A DNA stretch of 64,000 nt, taken from NCBI GenBank assembly GCA_947627465.1, contig CANQWD010000008.1, forward strand, positions 1 through 64,000, in the 5' to 3' direction. Position 1 is the stretch's first letter. The number at the start of each line of letters is the position of its first letter. The notes beneath the pieces were generated by a model. The model did not search any database, had not been told where the DNA came from, and saw nothing but the letters and a program-made list of their open reading frames with translations. This document shows positions 49,738-55,707 of this stretch, piece after piece. The translations under genes were made by a program, and so were the position numbers. The stretch is from an uncultured Clostridia bacterium (lineage in GTDB: Bacteria > Bacillota > Clostridia > Oscillospirales > Ruminococcaceae).

Positions 49738-50436
49738 ATGGATGAATTTTGCAGAACAGAGCGTTTGCTTGGCTCGGCGGCTCTCGAAAAGCTGAACAAA
49801 AGCCGTGTCGCGGTGTTCGGTATAGGCGGAGTGGGCGGTCACGCCGCGGAAGCTCTGGTGCGCAGCGGCATAGGCGCACTTGACATAATCGACGGCGACG
49901 AGGTCGCGCTGTCGAACATAAACCGGCAGATAATCGCTTTGCACAGCACGGTCGGTATGGCGAAAACCGAAGCCGCCGCCACGCGTTTACTCGATATCAA
50001 TCCCGAATTGGTTTTGCGGAAATATCAATTCCGATTATCCGAGGAAACGGTCGGCGAATTTGACTTTTCGGATTACGATTATGCTGTAGACGCTATCGAC
50101 GATGTTCGCGCTAAAGTGCTTTTAGCCGTAAAGTGTAAGGAAAGCGGCACGCCGCTGATAAGCTCGATGGGCGCGGGAAATAAGATAGACCCGACAAAGT
50201 TTCAAGTCGCGGACATTTACAAAACGAGCGTTTGTCCGCTAGCTCGGGTAATGCGCCGAGAACTCAAATTGCGCGGAATAGAGCGCCTAAAGGTCGTGTA
50301 TTCCACGGAACTGCCGCACGCTCCCACAAAAGAATGTGAGCGCGTTGTTCCCGCTTCGTGCGCGTTTGTGCCGTCGGTCGCGGGGCTGATTATCGCAGGC
50401 GAGGTCGTTAAAGATCTTACAAATATTACTAAATGA
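49738..50436 (+). CDS. tcdA: tRNA threonylcarbamoyladenosine dehydratase (ThiF/E1-like)
   Basis: A 232-residue E1-like enzyme that cyclises t6A in tRNA to ct6A. The nucleotide-binding FGIGGVGGHAAEALVRSGIG, DGDEVALSNINRQ and the DYAVDAIDDVRAKVLL strand match TcdA (CsdL/YgdL). ATG 49738 follows GAAAGGA; longer in-frame sequence upstream belongs to a remnant. The C-terminus lacks the extension seen in some homologs. Confidence 0.88.
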   Translation: MDEFCRTERLLGSAALEKLNKSRVAVFGIGGVGGHAAEALVRSGIGALDIIDGDEVALSNINRQIIALHSTVGMAKTEAAATRLLDINPELVLRKYQFRLSEETVGEFDFSDYDYAVDAIDDVRAKVLLAVKCKESGTPLISSMGAGNKIDPTKFQVADIYKTSVCPLARVMRRELKLRGIERLKVVYSTELPHAPTKECERVVPASCAFVPSVAGLIIAGEVVKDLTNITK

Positions 50437-50487
50437 AACATAGAATTTCCCCGTCGGCGGCGGGGAAAAATTTTTATAAAAAAGTGC

Positions 50488-50516
50488 TTGACAAATACCC
50501 CCGTGGGGTATATAAT
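50488..50516 (+). promoter_or_regulatory. Promoter of the copper module
   Basis: TTGACA at 50488-50493 and TATAAT at 50511-50516 are 17 bases apart. The spacer is almost entirely the CsoR operator, so repressor binding would block RNA polymerase. Confidence 0.9.
50495..50511. promoter_or_regulatory. CsoR operator
   Basis: The 17-base palindrome ATACCCCCGTGGGGTAT (7+3+7) matches known GC-centred CsoR sites of Firmicutes and fills the -35/-10 spacer. The gene it controls encodes a CsoR protein. Confidence 0.88.
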
Positions 50517-50537
50517 ATTAAGGGGGAGATGATAACG

Positions 50538-50840
50538 GTGGCTGAAAATTGTCCTCATTGTCAAAAGAAAAAAGAGCGTTCCGAAGCGGAATATAAGAAG
50601 CTGATAAACCGATTGAACCGCATTTCGGGTCAGATAAACGGGATAAAGAAAATGGTGGAAAACAGCGCGTACTGCACGGATATTCTGGTGCAAGTCGCCG
50701 CTGTGAATGCCGCGCTGAACTCGTTTAATAAAGAACTGCTCGCGGAGCATATTCGCACTTGCGTTGCGGATAATATTAAGAACGGCAACGACGAGGTAAT
50801 AGACGAACTGGTGAATACTTTACAGAAGCTGATGAAGTAA
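50538..50840 (+). CDS. csoR: Copper-sensing repressor CsoR
   Basis: A 100-residue four-helix repressor of the CsoR/RcnR family. The Cu(I) ligands are all present with canonical spacing: Cys in AYCTDIL, His 25 residues later and Cys 29 residues later (EHIRTCV). The N-terminus also has a CPHC pair not needed for the core site. The start is GTG 50538, ten bases after GGGGGAG; ATG 50529 is in frame but only one base from that site. Copper binding should release it from the operator and allow expression of itself and copA-copZ. Confidence 0.92.
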   Translation: MAENCPHCQKKKERSEAEYKKLINRLNRISGQINGIKKMVENSAYCTDILVQVAAVNAALNSFNKELLAEHIRTCVADNIKNGNDEVIDELVNTLQKLMK

Positions 50841-50915
50841 ACGATTGACTTTTGGGCGTGGTTTTTTGCCGTATTCTGAAAAAGCGTTGAAATTATTTTT
50901 AAATAAGGGGCTAAA

Positions 50916-53396
50916 ATGGAGCAATATAATGTTACGGGAATGTCCTGCGCGGCTTGCTCCGCGCGGGTGGAAAAAGCGGTGAACGCCGTTTCGGGAGTTA
51001 CAAGCTGTTCGGTCAGCTTGCTCACGAACTCCATGGCGGTGGAGGGCGGCGAGCCGTCCGAGATCGTTAAGGCAGTGGAAGCGGCGGGCTACGGCGCGGC
51101 GGTCAAGGGCGCAAAAAAGTCGGAGAGCGCTAAGGACGAGTTAAAGGACACGGAAACGCCCAAAATGAAAATGCGCCTGTTTTGGAGCTTGGGATTTCTG
51201 GCTGTGCTGATGTATATTTCAATGGGCGCGATGATGTGGGGCTGGAAAGTTCCGCCGTTTTTGGAAAATCACGTTGCTATGGCTTTGGCGCAGCTGCTGC
51301 TTTCAGCGGTGATAATGATTATCAATCAGCGGTTCTTTATAAGCGGAGTTAAGGGAGTGCTTCACAAGTCTGCGAATATGGATACGCTGGTGTCGCTGGG
51401 CGCGGCGGCGGCGTTCGGTTATTCGGTCTACGCGATGTTTAGGATGATAAACGGAGACGAAGCCGCTCAAATGGCTTATATGCACGAGCTGTATTTTGAA
51501 AGCGCGGGCATGATACTCACACTGATAACGCTCGGCAAGCTGTTGGAAGCGCGTTCCAAGGGGAAAACCACCACGGCTTTGAAAAGCCTGATAAAATTAG
51601 CGCCGCAGACCGCCGTGCTGATAAGAGACGGCGAAGAGATCACGGTGCCGATAGAGAGCGTGAACGTCGGCGATATATTCTCGGTGAAGGCGGGAGAGAG
51701 CATTCCCGTGGACGGTGTAATTATAGACGGCGAGACCTCGATAAACGAAGCAGCGCTCACAGGCGAGAGCATTCCTGTTGACAAAATAGTCGGCGACGAG
51801 GTAAGCGCCGCAACTATCAGCGTTTCGGGATATATAAAGTGCAGAGCAACGCGCGTCGGCGAGGACACCTCGCTGTCGCAGATAATCAAGACGGTAAGCG
51901 ACGCGGCAGCTACCAAAGCCCCCATAGCTAAGATTGCCGACAAGGTCTCGGGGGTATTCGTGCCCGTGGTAATAGCGATAGCGCTTGTGACCATTGCCGT
52001 GTGGCTGATTATCGGAAACGGCGCGGGGTACGCAATAGAACGCGGAATTTCCGTGCTTGTTATATCCTGTCCGTGCGCGCTGGGGCTGGCTACTCCCGTA
52101 GCGATAATGGTGGGCAACGGCATTGCCGCGAAAAACGGCATTTTGTTTAAAACGGCGGCGGCTCTTGAGGCGGCGGGAAAGACGGATATCGTGCTGCTTG
52201 ACAAAACAGGCACCATTACAAGCGGAGAGCCTACCGTGTGTGATATTCTTCCCTTTAATATCGAGGAGGAAGAGCTGCTGCGCGCCGCTTACGCCATAGA
52301 AAAACGAAGCGAACATCCTTTGGCTAAGGCGATAGTTTCTCACGGACGCTCGTATAATTTCCCGAACGAGGAGCCAAGCTCGTTTCAAGTTCTGCGCGGG
52401 AGCGGAATTTCGGCGGAGCTGAACGGACGGCAGTATATAGCGGGAAATCTGCGGCTTTGCGAGACATACTGCGATATACCGAGAGAACTTCGCGACGCTT
52501 CGGAGCGCTTTGCGAATGAGGGCAAAACGCCGCTCTATTTCTGCCGCGACCAAAAGCCTATCGGCATTATCGCCGTGGCGGACGCTATCAAAGAAGAAAG
52601 CGCGGAAGCCGTTTCGCAGCTTAAAGCAATGGGCTGTCACACAGTCATGCTGACGGGCGACAACAAACGCACCGCCGAAGCCGTCGGAAAAATCGCGGGC
52701 GTCGACGAGGTGATAGCCGAGGTTCGTCCGAACGATAAAGAAGACGTTGTGCACGAGTTCCAAAAACGCGGCAAAGTCATTATGGTGGGCGACGGCATAA
52801 ACGACGCGCCCGCCCTCACCCGCGCGGATATCGGAATAGCGATAGGCGCGGGCAGCGATATCGCGATAGACAGCGCGGATATCGTGCTGATGAAGTCGCG
52901 GCTTTCGGACGTTCCCGCCGCGATAAGGCTGTCAAGGCGCACGCTGCTCAACATCAAGGAGAACCTGTTTTGGGCGTTTATTTACAACGTTATCGGAATA
53001 CCGCTTGCGGCGGGCGTTTGGATAGGCTTGTTCGGCTGGCGGCTGAACCCGATGTTCGGGGCGGCGGCTATGAGCCTGTCAAGCTTCTGCGTGGTTACAA
53101 ACGCTTTGCGGCTGAATTTCGTGAAGATCTATGATACTAAGCACGACCACCCAAGGCGTGCGAAAAATAAACAGTTAAAGGAGAAAAACACTATGGAAGT
53201 TACTATGAAGATCGAGGGTATGATGTGCGGTCACTGCGAGGCGACCGTCAAGAAAGCTCTGGAAGCCGTTCCAACTGTCGAGAGCGCCGAAGTTTCCCAC
53301 GAAAAGGGAACCGCGGTGGTTAAACTGAAAGAAGCCACCGATTTCGCCGTGCTGAAGAAAGCCGTTGAGGACAAAGACTACAAGGTCGTTGAATAA
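50916..53396 (+). CDS. copA: Copper-exporting P1B-ATPase CopA fused in frame to CopZ
   Basis: An 826-residue fusion. Residues 1-759 are CopA: a heavy-metal-associated domain (GMSCAACSARVEKAV), membrane helices with the CPC metal site (VISCPCALGLATP), phosphorylation motif DKTGTITSGEP, the SEHPLAKA nucleotide motif, and GDGINDAPAL. Residues 760-826 are a second heavy-metal domain (GMMCGHCEATVKKAL), identical in layout to a free CopZ chaperone. No stop separates them; the linker is basic (RRAKNKQLKEKN). An internal ribosome site also allows separate CopZ. It pumps Cu(I) out of the cytoplasm. The start follows AAGGGG, 75 bases after csoR. Confidence 0.92.
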   Translation: MEQYNVTGMSCAACSARVEKAVNAVSGVTSCSVSLLTNSMAVEGGEPSEIVKAVEAAGYGAAVKGAKKSESAKDELKDTETPKMKMRLFWSLGFLAVLMYISMGAMMWGWKVPPFLENHVAMALAQLLLSAVIMIINQRFFISGVKGVLHKSANMDTLVSLGAAAAFGYSVYAMFRMINGDEAAQMAYMHELYFESAGMILTLITLGKLLEARSKGKTTTALKSLIKLAPQTAVLIRDGEEITVPIESVNVGDIFSVKAGESIPVDGVIIDGETSINEAALTGESIPVDKIVGDEVSAATISVSGYIKCRATRVGEDTSLSQIIKTVSDAAATKAPIAKIADKVSGVFVPVVIAIALVTIAVWLIIGNGAGYAIERGISVLVISCPCALGLATPVAIMVGNGIAAKNGILFKTAAALEAAGKTDIVLLDKTGTITSGEPTVCDILPFNIEEEELLRAAYAIEKRSEHPLAKAIVSHGRSYNFPNEEPSSFQVLRGSGISAELNGRQYIAGNLRLCETYCDIPRELRDASERFANEGKTPLYFCRDQKPIGIIAVADAIKEESAEAVSQLKAMGCHTVMLTGDNKRTAEAVGKIAGVDEVIAEVRPNDKEDVVHEFQKRGKVIMVGDGINDAPALTRADIGIAIGAGSDIAIDSADIVLMKSRLSDVPAAIRLSRRTLLNIKENLFWAFIYNVIGIPLAAGVWIGLFGWRLNPMFGAAAMSLSSFCVVTNALRLNFVKIYDTKHDHPRRAKNKQLKEKNTMEVTMKIEGMMCGHCEATVKKALEAVPTVESAEVSHEKGTAVVKLKEATDFAVLKKAVEDKDYKVVE
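53193..53396 (+). CDS. copZ: Copper chaperone CopZ from an internal start
   Basis: ATG 53193 is in frame inside copA and is preceded at nine bases by AAAGGAG (53177-53183). It gives a 67-residue protein with the CxxC motif MMCGHC and the beta-alpha-beta pattern of CopZ, which carries Cu(I) to CopA and CsoR. In related genomes this would be a separate gene after the copA stop. Whether free CopZ, the fusion, or both are made is inferred. Confidence 0.7.
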   Translation: MEVTMKIEGMMCGHCEATVKKALEAVPTVESAEVSHEKGTAVVKLKEATDFAVLKKAVEDKDYKVVE

Positions 53397-53414
53397 AATA
53401 CAGAAAAATAATGC

Positions 53415-53444
53415 TTTCTCCCCCTCTTCGCGGAGGGGGAGAAA
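53415..53444. other. Strong hairpin after copZ
   Basis: TTTCTCCCCCTC and GAGGGGGAGAAA form a 12-base stem with a six-base loop. It lacks a T tract but lies between convergent genes, so it may end or protect both transcripts. Confidence 0.6.
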
Positions 53445-53459
53445 ATGAAAAAACACTTT

Positions 53460-54027
53460 TTATTCACTCTGTCCGCTTCCCGAGGGGAGCGGATTTGTGT
53501 TATCATCTACAAATATAAATTTGCCGAGCGAGGGAAGACGGAGGTAGTTTTCGCCGGAATGAAAAAATATATGCACGGTGTTGTCATAGGTTAGGTCTTC
53601 GGGGAGCGACCGCTCCTCGGTGCAGTTAATAATGATATTATAATATACGGAGTATTCTTCCTCCACGATGTATTCTTTTTTCGTGGCAGTAATATCTTTT
53701 CGTCAGCATACGCTGCCTCTGCGCCATATCTTTGTTGCTCCACTCTTTTTCCATATATTTTTTTATTGAAGCGTCAACATCGCTGCCGTTAAGCAGAAAC
53801 GTTTCGGGCGTTATCTCCACCCACAGGTCGGCGTTCTTGTCGCCGTTGAGGTAATATTTGCCCAACTTTAAGGTGTCCTCCGGTACTTCTGTCGGCGGGA
53901 TATAGACGTTTTGTTCCGCGTTTAGGCGCTCGGTTTCGGCGTTTTTTTTGTTTATCAAGGCCGTCACTGCAACAGCCGCGATAAGCAAAACCGCCGCGAT
54001 AATAATAGGTATTGAGATCTTTTTCAT
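53460..54027 (-). pseudogene. Exported small protein of unknown function, frameshifted
   Basis: The N-terminal part, from ATG 54027, has one membrane segment (ISIPIIIAAVLLIAAVAVTAL) then a soluble region (VPEDTLKLGKYYLNGDKNAD). It runs out of frame near 53700, while the other frame continues with compatible sequence (DITATKKEYIVEEEYSVYYN ... SLGKFIFVDDN) to the stop at 53460. A one-base change in a run of A residues explains this. The joined protein would be about 188 residues. No family is recognised; a read error is possible. Confidence 0.65.
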
Positions 54028-54218
54028 AGAATTCACCATCCAAACTATAATATAATTATACAAATTTTCAGGTATTATGTCAATACTGTAAGCATAAATT
54101 TAGTTGCGTTCCGGAACAAATTTGTATGCTTGCACAAACTGTCTGCCGCCAATTTGTTATAAATCACAATCGTTTTAGAGTCTGTCTGTTATACTGCCAT
54201 GACATCGTCAAAATCAAC

Positions 54219-54327: not shown

Positions 54328-55707
54328 ATGAGTGATGAATATCAATGGCGGGAAGAGTATAATATCGGTGTTGAGAGTATCGACAAGGAACATCGGCAGC
54401 TTTTTAGTATAATAAATAAGCTTTTTGCCATGGAAAAAGACGGGAAAGATATCGAATGGGTCTGCAGCGAGGGTATTAAGTTTTTTAAGACGCATGCTCT
54501 CACACACTTCTCCAATGAAGAAGCTTATATGGCGTCCATAGATTACAAAGGACTTCCGCAGCATCGTCTGCTTCATCAAAATTTCCGCAATAACACGCTT
54601 CCCGCTTTGGAAAAAGAGCTGGAGCGCACTAATTATTCCCAAAACTCGCTGGAGCATTTCCTCGGAGTATGCGCAGGTTGGCTTATCGGTCATACGCTTA
54701 CCGAGGATATCGCAATATCGGGTAAGGAAAATTCCGAACGCTGGCAGCATCTTTTTTCCGGCAATGAGCAGGACGATATTAAAAAGGTGATCCTCCAACA
54801 GCTGTTCAACGTATTTCATGTTGAAGCACACCTTGTAAGCGACAGATACGGCGCGGAGAAGTTCGGAAACGGAATATATTACCGTTTGGTCTACGGTATG
54901 CCAAATATAAGCGAAAAGCTGGAGATAATTATGGTATTCGAGGAACAGATGGTCATAAATACTGTGGGAAAGGTTCTCGGAATACATACGAACGAACTGG
55001 ACTCAATGCTGCTGCACGCTACGCGTTATTCGGCAAGACAATTTGTGAACAGGGCTGTGGAGTGTTTTCCGGCATTGGCTAATTACGGTCTTGAGGAAGA
55101 GGACTTTCTTTCTTACAGCGATTTCCATAAGCTTATGTCGAAAGGCGAGCATCAACTGAGTTTGTTGTTTGACACGGGGGTAGGTTACTTCGCTTACTGC
55201 GTGATCGCGCCGCATTTGCTTGAAACGGGCATCGGTTATTCCATTATGAGCGACAACGCCGCCTCCGAAGTAGAAAAGTACCTGAACCGCCGCAAGGAAA
55301 AGGAAGAACAGGCTAAGAAAAATCCCCGAAAAAAGGTGCTGATCGTGGACGATTCTCCCACTATACGCGAGGGAATGAAGAAAATGCTTTCAAACGACTA
55401 TTCAGTTTCCGCAGTGGATTCGGGGGTCGCGGCTATTCGGTCCATTGCGCTGGACGTTCCGGATCTTGTGCTTCTTGATTATGAAATGCCCGTGTGCGAT
55501 GGTCGTCAGACATTGGAAATGCTCCGTTCGGACGAGGTATTTGCCAACGTTCCGGTTATTTTCCTTACGGGACGCAGAGACCCCGCAAGCGTAATCGGGG
55601 TTATGCCGCTAAAGCCCTCGGGATATATTCTGAAAACTTCTAAGCCCGACGAGATCCAAAAAGAAATAAGTGATTTTTTCGCAAAGCAGCAGAGTGTTAA
55701 GAATTAA
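54328..55707 (+). CDS. Hemerythrin - CheX-like - response regulator receiver protein
   Basis: A 459-residue cytoplasmic protein with three parts. Residues 1-135 form a bacteriohemerythrin with a full di-iron set: His22, His60, Glu64, His79, His83, His122 and Asp127. Residues about 145-315 have the alternating strand-helix pattern of CheX/CheC-type domains, but the Glu-Asn pair needed for phosphatase action is not evident. Residues about 330-450 form a receiver domain (KVLIVDDSPTIREGM, LLDYEMP, FLTGRRD, ILKTSKP), with the phosphoryl Asp in LLDYEM and the conserved Thr and Lys. No output domain follows. It probably senses oxygen or redox and feeds into phosphorelay or chemotaxis-like signalling. 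AGGAGG precedes ATG 54328. Confidence 0.85.
   Translation: MSDEYQWREEYNIGVESIDKEHRQLFSIINKLFAMEKDGKDIEWVCSEGIKFFKTHALTHFSNEEAYMASIDYKGLPQHRLLHQNFRNNTLPALEKELERTNYSQNSLEHFLGVCAGWLIGHTLTEDIAISGKENSERWQHLFSGNEQDDIKKVILQQLFNVFHVEAHLVSDRYGAEKFGNGIYYRLVYGMPNISEKLEIIMVFEEQMVINTVGKVLGIHTNELDSMLLHATRYSARQFVNRAVECFPALANYGLEEEDFLSYSDFHKLMSKGEHQLSLLFDTGVGYFAYCVIAPHLLETGIGYSIMSDNAASEVEKYLNRRKEKEEQAKKNPRKKVLIVDDSPTIREGMKKMLSNDYSVSAVDSGVAAIRSIALDVPDLVLLDYEMPVCDGRQTLEMLRSDEVFANVPVIFLTGRRDPASVIGVMPLKPSGYILKTSKPDEIQKEISDFFAKQQSVKN

Follow-up and report, generated by a model that had tools for sequence, protein, structure and literature searches.

Does a single copper-export gene supply both a chaperone tethered to the pump and the same chaperone in free form? 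The 64,000-nucleotide stretch of DNA that we analysed (the window) raises this question because its copA reading frame, as an earlier note on this DNA had pointed out, continues without a stop codon into a complete CopZ domain, inside a gene that also carries AAAGGAG nine bases ahead of ATG 53193. The open reading frame and a full-length PF00403 match bear out the first of these observations, and the sequence itself bears out the second. The elements of the gene are as follows.

50916..53396, + strand: full-length CopA-CopZ fusion; open reading frame of 826 amino acids with an ATG start, TIGR01511, E1-E2_ATPase and Hydrolase domains
50925..51092, + strand: N-terminal HMA domain (PF00403, E 3.5e-15)
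53121..53192, + strand: linker from the last transmembrane helix to the CopZ domain, with low predicted RNA structure toward its end
53177..53183, + strand: internal Shine-Dalgarno (SD)-like AAAGGAG, within Leu-Lys-Glu codons (TTA AAG GAG); conserved in relatives
53193..53396, + strand: inner CopZ reading frame from ATG 53193, 67 amino acids, stop included, in phase with copA; full-length PF00403 match

A copper ATPase joined to a CopZ-like domain

The window CopA scores 586.4 bits against TIGR01511 (cut-off 397), which places it in the copper-exporting P1B ATPase subfamily, and the CPC, DKTGT and GDGxND motifs are invariant among 39 aligned proteins; it does not reach the cut-off of the equivalog PRK10671 (632.6 versus 1316). 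Positions 53193-53393 encode 67 amino acids that make up a complete HMA domain (PF00403, 58.6 bits against a cut-off of 24.8, profile positions 1-62 of 62). This inner protein has the size of a stand-alone HMA protein and the MMCGHC (MxCxxC) motif, and so has the domain make-up of CopZ. Because it falls below the curated CopZ cut-offs (61.5 versus 85 bits for NF047957, 49.7 versus 91 for NF033795), we call it CopZ-like, on the basis of its domain and its gene position. An AlphaFold2 model of the fusion, built with 39 aligned sequences (mean pLDDT 81), predicts two HMA-like folds; the last membrane helix ends at residue 735, pLDDT is below 50 for residues 749-758, and residue 760, the start Met of CopZ, opens the first strand of the second HMA domain.

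Flanking sequences

A regulatory gene and a promoter-like sequence precede copA.

50488..50516, + strand: promoter-like TTGACA-17-TATAAT ahead of csoR-copA, matching the sigma-70 consensus at 12/12 positions (consensus scan of 50300-53600)
50495..50511, no strand assigned: palindrome ATACCCCCGTGGGGTAT / CCCCCGTGGGG inside the promoter, a candidate CsoR operator
50529..50840, + strand: csoR-like metal-sensing repressor (50550-50837 scores 109 bits with PF02583, cut-off 22.8)

The start codon given for the csoR-like gene is our choice, the listed open reading frame starting at 50433, and the palindrome is one that we presume, as a candidate, to serve as the CsoR operator. The consensus scan of 50300-53600 returned four promoter-like sites, none of them downstream of 51679; we rejected transcription of CopZ from an internal promoter of its own because the scan was empty between 51680 and 53193. 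No structured RNA element matched Rfam at the gathering threshold within 50000-54000.

On the other side of copA, two minus-strand open reading frames in different frames at 53460-54063 resemble fragments of a single small membrane-anchored protein; the gene may be broken, or the sequence may contain a local error. Further downstream, the open reading frame at 54328-55707 appears from its translation to combine a hemerythrin-type domain with a response-regulator receiver domain.

The fusion in other genomes

An assembly or sequencing error that deleted the copA stop codon would create the appearance of a fusion. The window genome is fragmented (52 contigs), and the gene at 53460-54063, near copA, looks broken into two frames, both of which speak for such an error. 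Against it, the same fusion is present in other genomes of the genus and order, in named genomes that include the cultured strains Ruminococcus bromii ATCC 27255 and Coprococcus catus VPIC661, and on two complete plasmids, from Roseburia sp. 831b and Ruminococcus albus 7, which have the same junction and for which the gene table lists one ATPase gene. Since the same fusion is read in relatives, cultured strains and complete plasmids, it is not an assembly artefact; we consider the error vanishingly improbable and reject it as refuted by the relatives. The earlier note had named a stop codon in other isolates as the sign of an assembly or sequencing error, and what the other genomes show is the same fusion.

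Our genome survey covered 61 genomes, the window's own and 60 relatives. A C-terminal HMA region is joined to CopA in 45 of them; copZ is a separate, adjacent gene in two (G004 and G044), and five have a CopA without copZ directly downstream (G039, G053, G055, G058 and G059, with a small HMA frame upstream in G055). G026 is an ambiguous contig-end case, G031 stops at a contig end, and no CopA ortholog was among the listed matches in 7 of the 61. The junction could be read in 44 of the 45 fused genomes: 40 have a start codon and an SD-like core, the internal SD being weak in two of these (G046 and G051), and four lack this combination (G008, G017, G042 and G043). In G004, which belongs to the same genus, a TAA follows copA, and the same AAAGGAG and copZ come after it as a separate gene in another frame.

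We also collected loci with two kinds of query, the fused protein and a fused profile that included linker columns, and in part took the best matches listed; locus counts are therefore not prevalence estimates, and retention of the site may be inflated by retrieval that favours similarity to the fusion. All of the best 80 of 571 confirmed loci align with the fused query along almost its entire length; their titles name Oscillospiraceae, Lachnospiraceae, other Clostridia or Bacillota, and some are cultured strains. After 14 unparsed loci and L001-L004, L142 and L143 had been left out, merging duplicates gave a set of 268 distinct loci. Among the matches listed, a start codon with SD-type pairing (energy -4.2 or better) is kept at the CopZ boundary in 222 of 237 distinct fused loci; the internal start is not universal among fused copA genes, as 15 of the 237 listed loci have no usable one. 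Pairing is weak (-6 to -4.2) in 28 of the 222, mostly those with AAGGA cores, and a few are doubtful (e.g. L162 and L272).

Conservation of the internal ribosome site

Internal SD-like sequences arise by chance, and the window copA has several: 3 of its 67 internal in-frame ATG, GTG or TTG codons have an SD duplex energy of -8.0 kcal/mol or better, 53193 among them, and the same energy is found at 2.0% of 2941 control in-frame ATGs from related genes. At these rates one such site in a single gene is not rare, and chance stands as an explanation for this gene alone; as judged from the aligned loci, it is the conservation among relatives, and not the single site, that exceeds chance. SD energies were computed with an assumed 16S anti-SD tail, there being no 16S match in the window's own genome or in 43 genomes of the genus.

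In the first set of listed matches, all 101 distinct loci share the position of the CopZ start Met and have a GGAG or AGGA core at -8 to -17. The mean SD energy at the CopZ start of these loci is -9.8, compared with -2.9 for 2941 other in-frame ATGs in the same genes. The surrounding linker is hypervariable, with entropy above 3 bits at every position from -24 to -6, and the two site codons have entropies of 1.61 and 0.49 bits. Codon choice is strongly skewed at the site: Lys is encoded by AAG in 67 of 68 cases versus 110 of 481 at other linker positions (Fisher test, p about 2e-36), and Glu by GAG in 89 of 94 versus 22 of 142 (Fisher p about 5e-37), p-values that are overstated because related sequences are not independent. 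Lys-Glu pairs are written AAGGAG in 97 of 114 cases at the site, and in 165 of 743 in gene bodies. When codons were reshuffled synonymously in the 209 of 237 fused loci that have an ATG at the standard place, an SD energy of -6 was reached in 14.7% of cases with linker codon use, or 37.5% with body codon use, as opposed to the 87.6% observed.

The core could be placed in 219 of the 222 loci with a site, and lies in codon phase 0, 1 or 2 in 178, 35 and 6 of them, respectively; the phase shifts give Lys-Glu, Lys-Gly or Glu-Arg type residues from one RNA motif, and parsimony counts 25 changes of phase. The motif is thus not tied to one codon phase, and the encoded residues vary while the RNA motif persists. 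RNA structure around the start was assessed for the 222 loci with a site and for 14 of the 15 without. The 60-base start region has a mean MFE of -2.75, versus -14.55 in the bodies of the 222 genes, and is less structured than every sampled body window in 199 of them; in the 14 fused genes without a site the start-region MFE is -11.26, and 28% of bases are A, compared with 54% in genes with a site. For the window gene, the 60-nt MFE around the CopZ start is -1.4 versus a gene mean of -15.5. These comparisons show nucleotide-level selection on the putative ribosome site, inside a hypervariable linker. The locus has the hallmark of a gene within a gene, namely a conserved in-frame internal start with a ribosome site.

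History of the fusion

To place the junctions in a phylogeny we used a CopA tree of 242 rows, built by a quick search and rooted at its midpoint after removal of two short cores and 24 near copies; 90 of its 239 inner branches are poorly supported. A branch with an SH-aLRT of 100 splits 25 rows (21 with an adjacent, separate copZ and 4 without copZ) from 217 rows, of which 199 are fused with the site, 12 fused without it, 3 adjacent, 2 without copZ and 1 at a contig end. The fused-with-site rows span 52 families, as counted on a subset of the genomes, and 18 of these rows fall outside the class of the window's genome. The earlier note had called for a survey of copA-copZ junctions in relatives, and the tree gives its outcome: the copA stop is absent on one large branch, within which there are three nested splits, one of them in the same genus (G004, L115).

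Parsimony requires four changes between fused and separate, consistent with one fusion followed by three later splits, and, among the fused rows, eight changes between having the site and lacking it. Linker length (counted from a fixed ATPase motif) changes about 144 times among the 199 fused-with-site tips; parsimony counts on a quick tree with many weak forks may be too high, but length also differs in 44 of 57 sister pairs. Read in the +1 frame, 124 of these 199 linkers contain stops, and in the +2 frame 164. Because these tips are fused by the way in which the set was chosen, the telling figure is the number of splits nested inside the fused branch, which is only three, in a sampling that favoured fused genes. 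The open frame of the fusion looks constrained and has been maintained. We propose that the ancestor had separate, adjacent copA and copZ genes, that the copA stop was lost while the ribosome site of copZ was kept, and that both products would have been retained since then in most of the sampled branch. On this midpoint-rooted tree, the direction from separate to fused is the likely one.

Fused genes without the site, and other small HMA genes

By our tally, a stand-alone HMA gene is present in 9 of 15 fused genomes without the site, versus 18 of 55 with it. One of these 18 is the window genome, which has small HMA genes on two other contigs, C42 and C4, the C42 one reading as a different HMA type; it may therefore obtain small HMA proteins without the fused copA. 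Next to the fused copA, a stand-alone HMA gene occurs at 3 of 15 loci without the site versus 2 of 222 with it, in flanks that differ in length; two of the three look like a different HMA subfamily. In L252, which is fused without the site, a CopZ-like gene lies just upstream of copA. These variants are no more than suggestive of a separate copZ compensating for a lost internal start.

Two further arrangements were seen among the loci. In L129 and L240, CopA is fused to a tandem pair of C-terminal HMA domains and the internal start is lacking, and in L152 and L160 small HMA proteins of the GMMCxMCExHxND type are encoded directly downstream of a site-less fused copA, the C42 protein of the window genome being similar.

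Discussion

We consider it highly probable that copA in the window is a dual-product gene, yielding a tethered CopA-CopZ and, by in-frame internal initiation, a free CopZ. Ribosomes that start at 50916 would make the 826-amino-acid CopA, with its N-terminal HMA domain and a CopZ-like domain on a flexible C-terminal linker; other ribosomes would bind AAAGGAG within the linker codons and start at ATG 53193, giving a free 67-amino-acid CopZ from the same frame. The free form would diffuse and carry copper to CopA, perhaps also to CsoR, and the tethered copy would be a local copper donor. The sequences show the fusion, the motif, its codon-level constraint and the upkeep of the frame; initiation at 53193, the amount of free CopZ and the roles of both forms are inferred. 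The earlier note had suggested that one gene could give both forms of the chaperone, and the evolutionary evidence supports that suggestion, in that the fusion frame and the internal start both look constrained.

There are three other explanations of the conserved junction. The site could be an inert leftover of an old, separate copZ, with the fusion protein as the sole product; relatives with separate adjacent genes bear such a site before copZ, so simple inheritance could account for its presence. A leftover would be expected to decay, however, whereas this site shows strong synonymous bias, persists through changes of codon phase and is kept in a linker that often changes length, and the 14 fused genes without it have linkers that are on average less A-rich and more structured. 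We regard a fossil site as very unlikely. SD-like codons within genes have been proposed to slow ribosomes, and the site falls after the last transmembrane helix of the predicted structure, where AAGGAG might act as a pause signal for membrane insertion or folding of the fusion rather than as a start. A pause would require neither an ATG at near-fixed spacing nor unstructured surroundings, yet the Met is kept in all of the first-set loci, at the first strand of the CopZ domain, and the split gene in the same genus uses the same element as an ordinary start; we give this explanation even less credence.

Conversely, free CopZ alone might matter, the open frame to CopA being incidental. Three lineages within the fused branch have split copA and copZ, and tethering is dispensable there. 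Set against this are the frame's staying open on all fused-with-site tips despite the many changes of linker length, and the small number of nested splits, in a sample that favoured fused genes; we find this explanation less credible still.

If copA is indeed a dual-product gene, many Clostridia without a separate copZ beside copA make CopZ from inside copA, and a pump and chaperone encoded by one gene evolved at least twice, through different translational tricks. Annotation would then hide a probable second protein, since the two complete plasmid records list only the ATPase here. The fused genes with the site, fused genes without it and split genes form a natural system for testing the effects of tethering a metallochaperone. 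We also raise, as a speculation that we think unlikely to hold, that a ratio of tethered to free chaperone is built into copA across a large part of the Clostridia, with elongating and newly loading ribosomes competing at the linker; the share of free CopZ would fall or rise with copA translation, adjusting copper hand-off without a second gene.

Comparison with known systems

Passages in PMC7558416, PMC6747150 and PMC10187127 (citing Meydan 2017) describe E. coli copA as also yielding a free CopZ-like protein, CopA(Z), by programmed -1 frameshifting, and PMC6747150 identifies the released product as the first, N-terminal metal-binding domain. In both cases one copA gene would give a copper pump and a free CopZ-like chaperone; by contrast with E. 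coli, the window gene would release its C-terminal domain, by in-frame internal initiation, and the earlier note's proposal of a different solution to the same need agrees with those passages. We did not adopt an E. coli-type copA(Z) frameshift for the window gene, because the slippery site is not conserved: a slippery heptamer with an early -1 stop occurs after the N-terminal HMA domain in 24 of 166 loci (14.5%) versus 279 of 2684 control windows (10.4%), a slight excess. The window itself has A_AAA_AAG in the right phase at 51113-51119, with a -1 stop after four codons, at 51131; in the near relatives L007 and L012 another heptamer lies four codons before that place and is followed by an early -1 stop, and L006 has none. 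The window copA may still carry a lineage-specific frameshift site.

In other bacteria, free CopZ is able to pass copper on to CopA, according to a passage in PMC7558416. In Monoglobus pectinilyticus the same two proteins are encoded in the same order, copA then copZ, but a stop codon separates them and there is no tethered CopZ. Structures of copper ATPases with HMA domains (e.g. 3j09 and 8q73) likewise have HMA domains tethered to a P1B ATPase, although the best-scoring stretches listed end at or before fusion residue 743 and none covers the C-terminal CopZ-like domain. We found no description of internal initiation in copA in the open-licence literature, as judged from titles and abstract openings and with most subscription papers outside that scope, which is weak evidence of novelty. 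The closest mechanistic parallels are the Rpn large and small proteins and Cas10d/Cas11d, for which a passage in PMC10327210 describes separate translation of the C-terminal part from an in-frame internal start. The window gene shares that gene-within-gene arrangement but differs in protein family and in purpose, its inner product being a metallochaperone, which some relatives encode in an ordinary gene of its own. It would thus join the known gene-within-gene systems as a variant that reaches the outcome of E. coli CopA(Z) by another mechanism.
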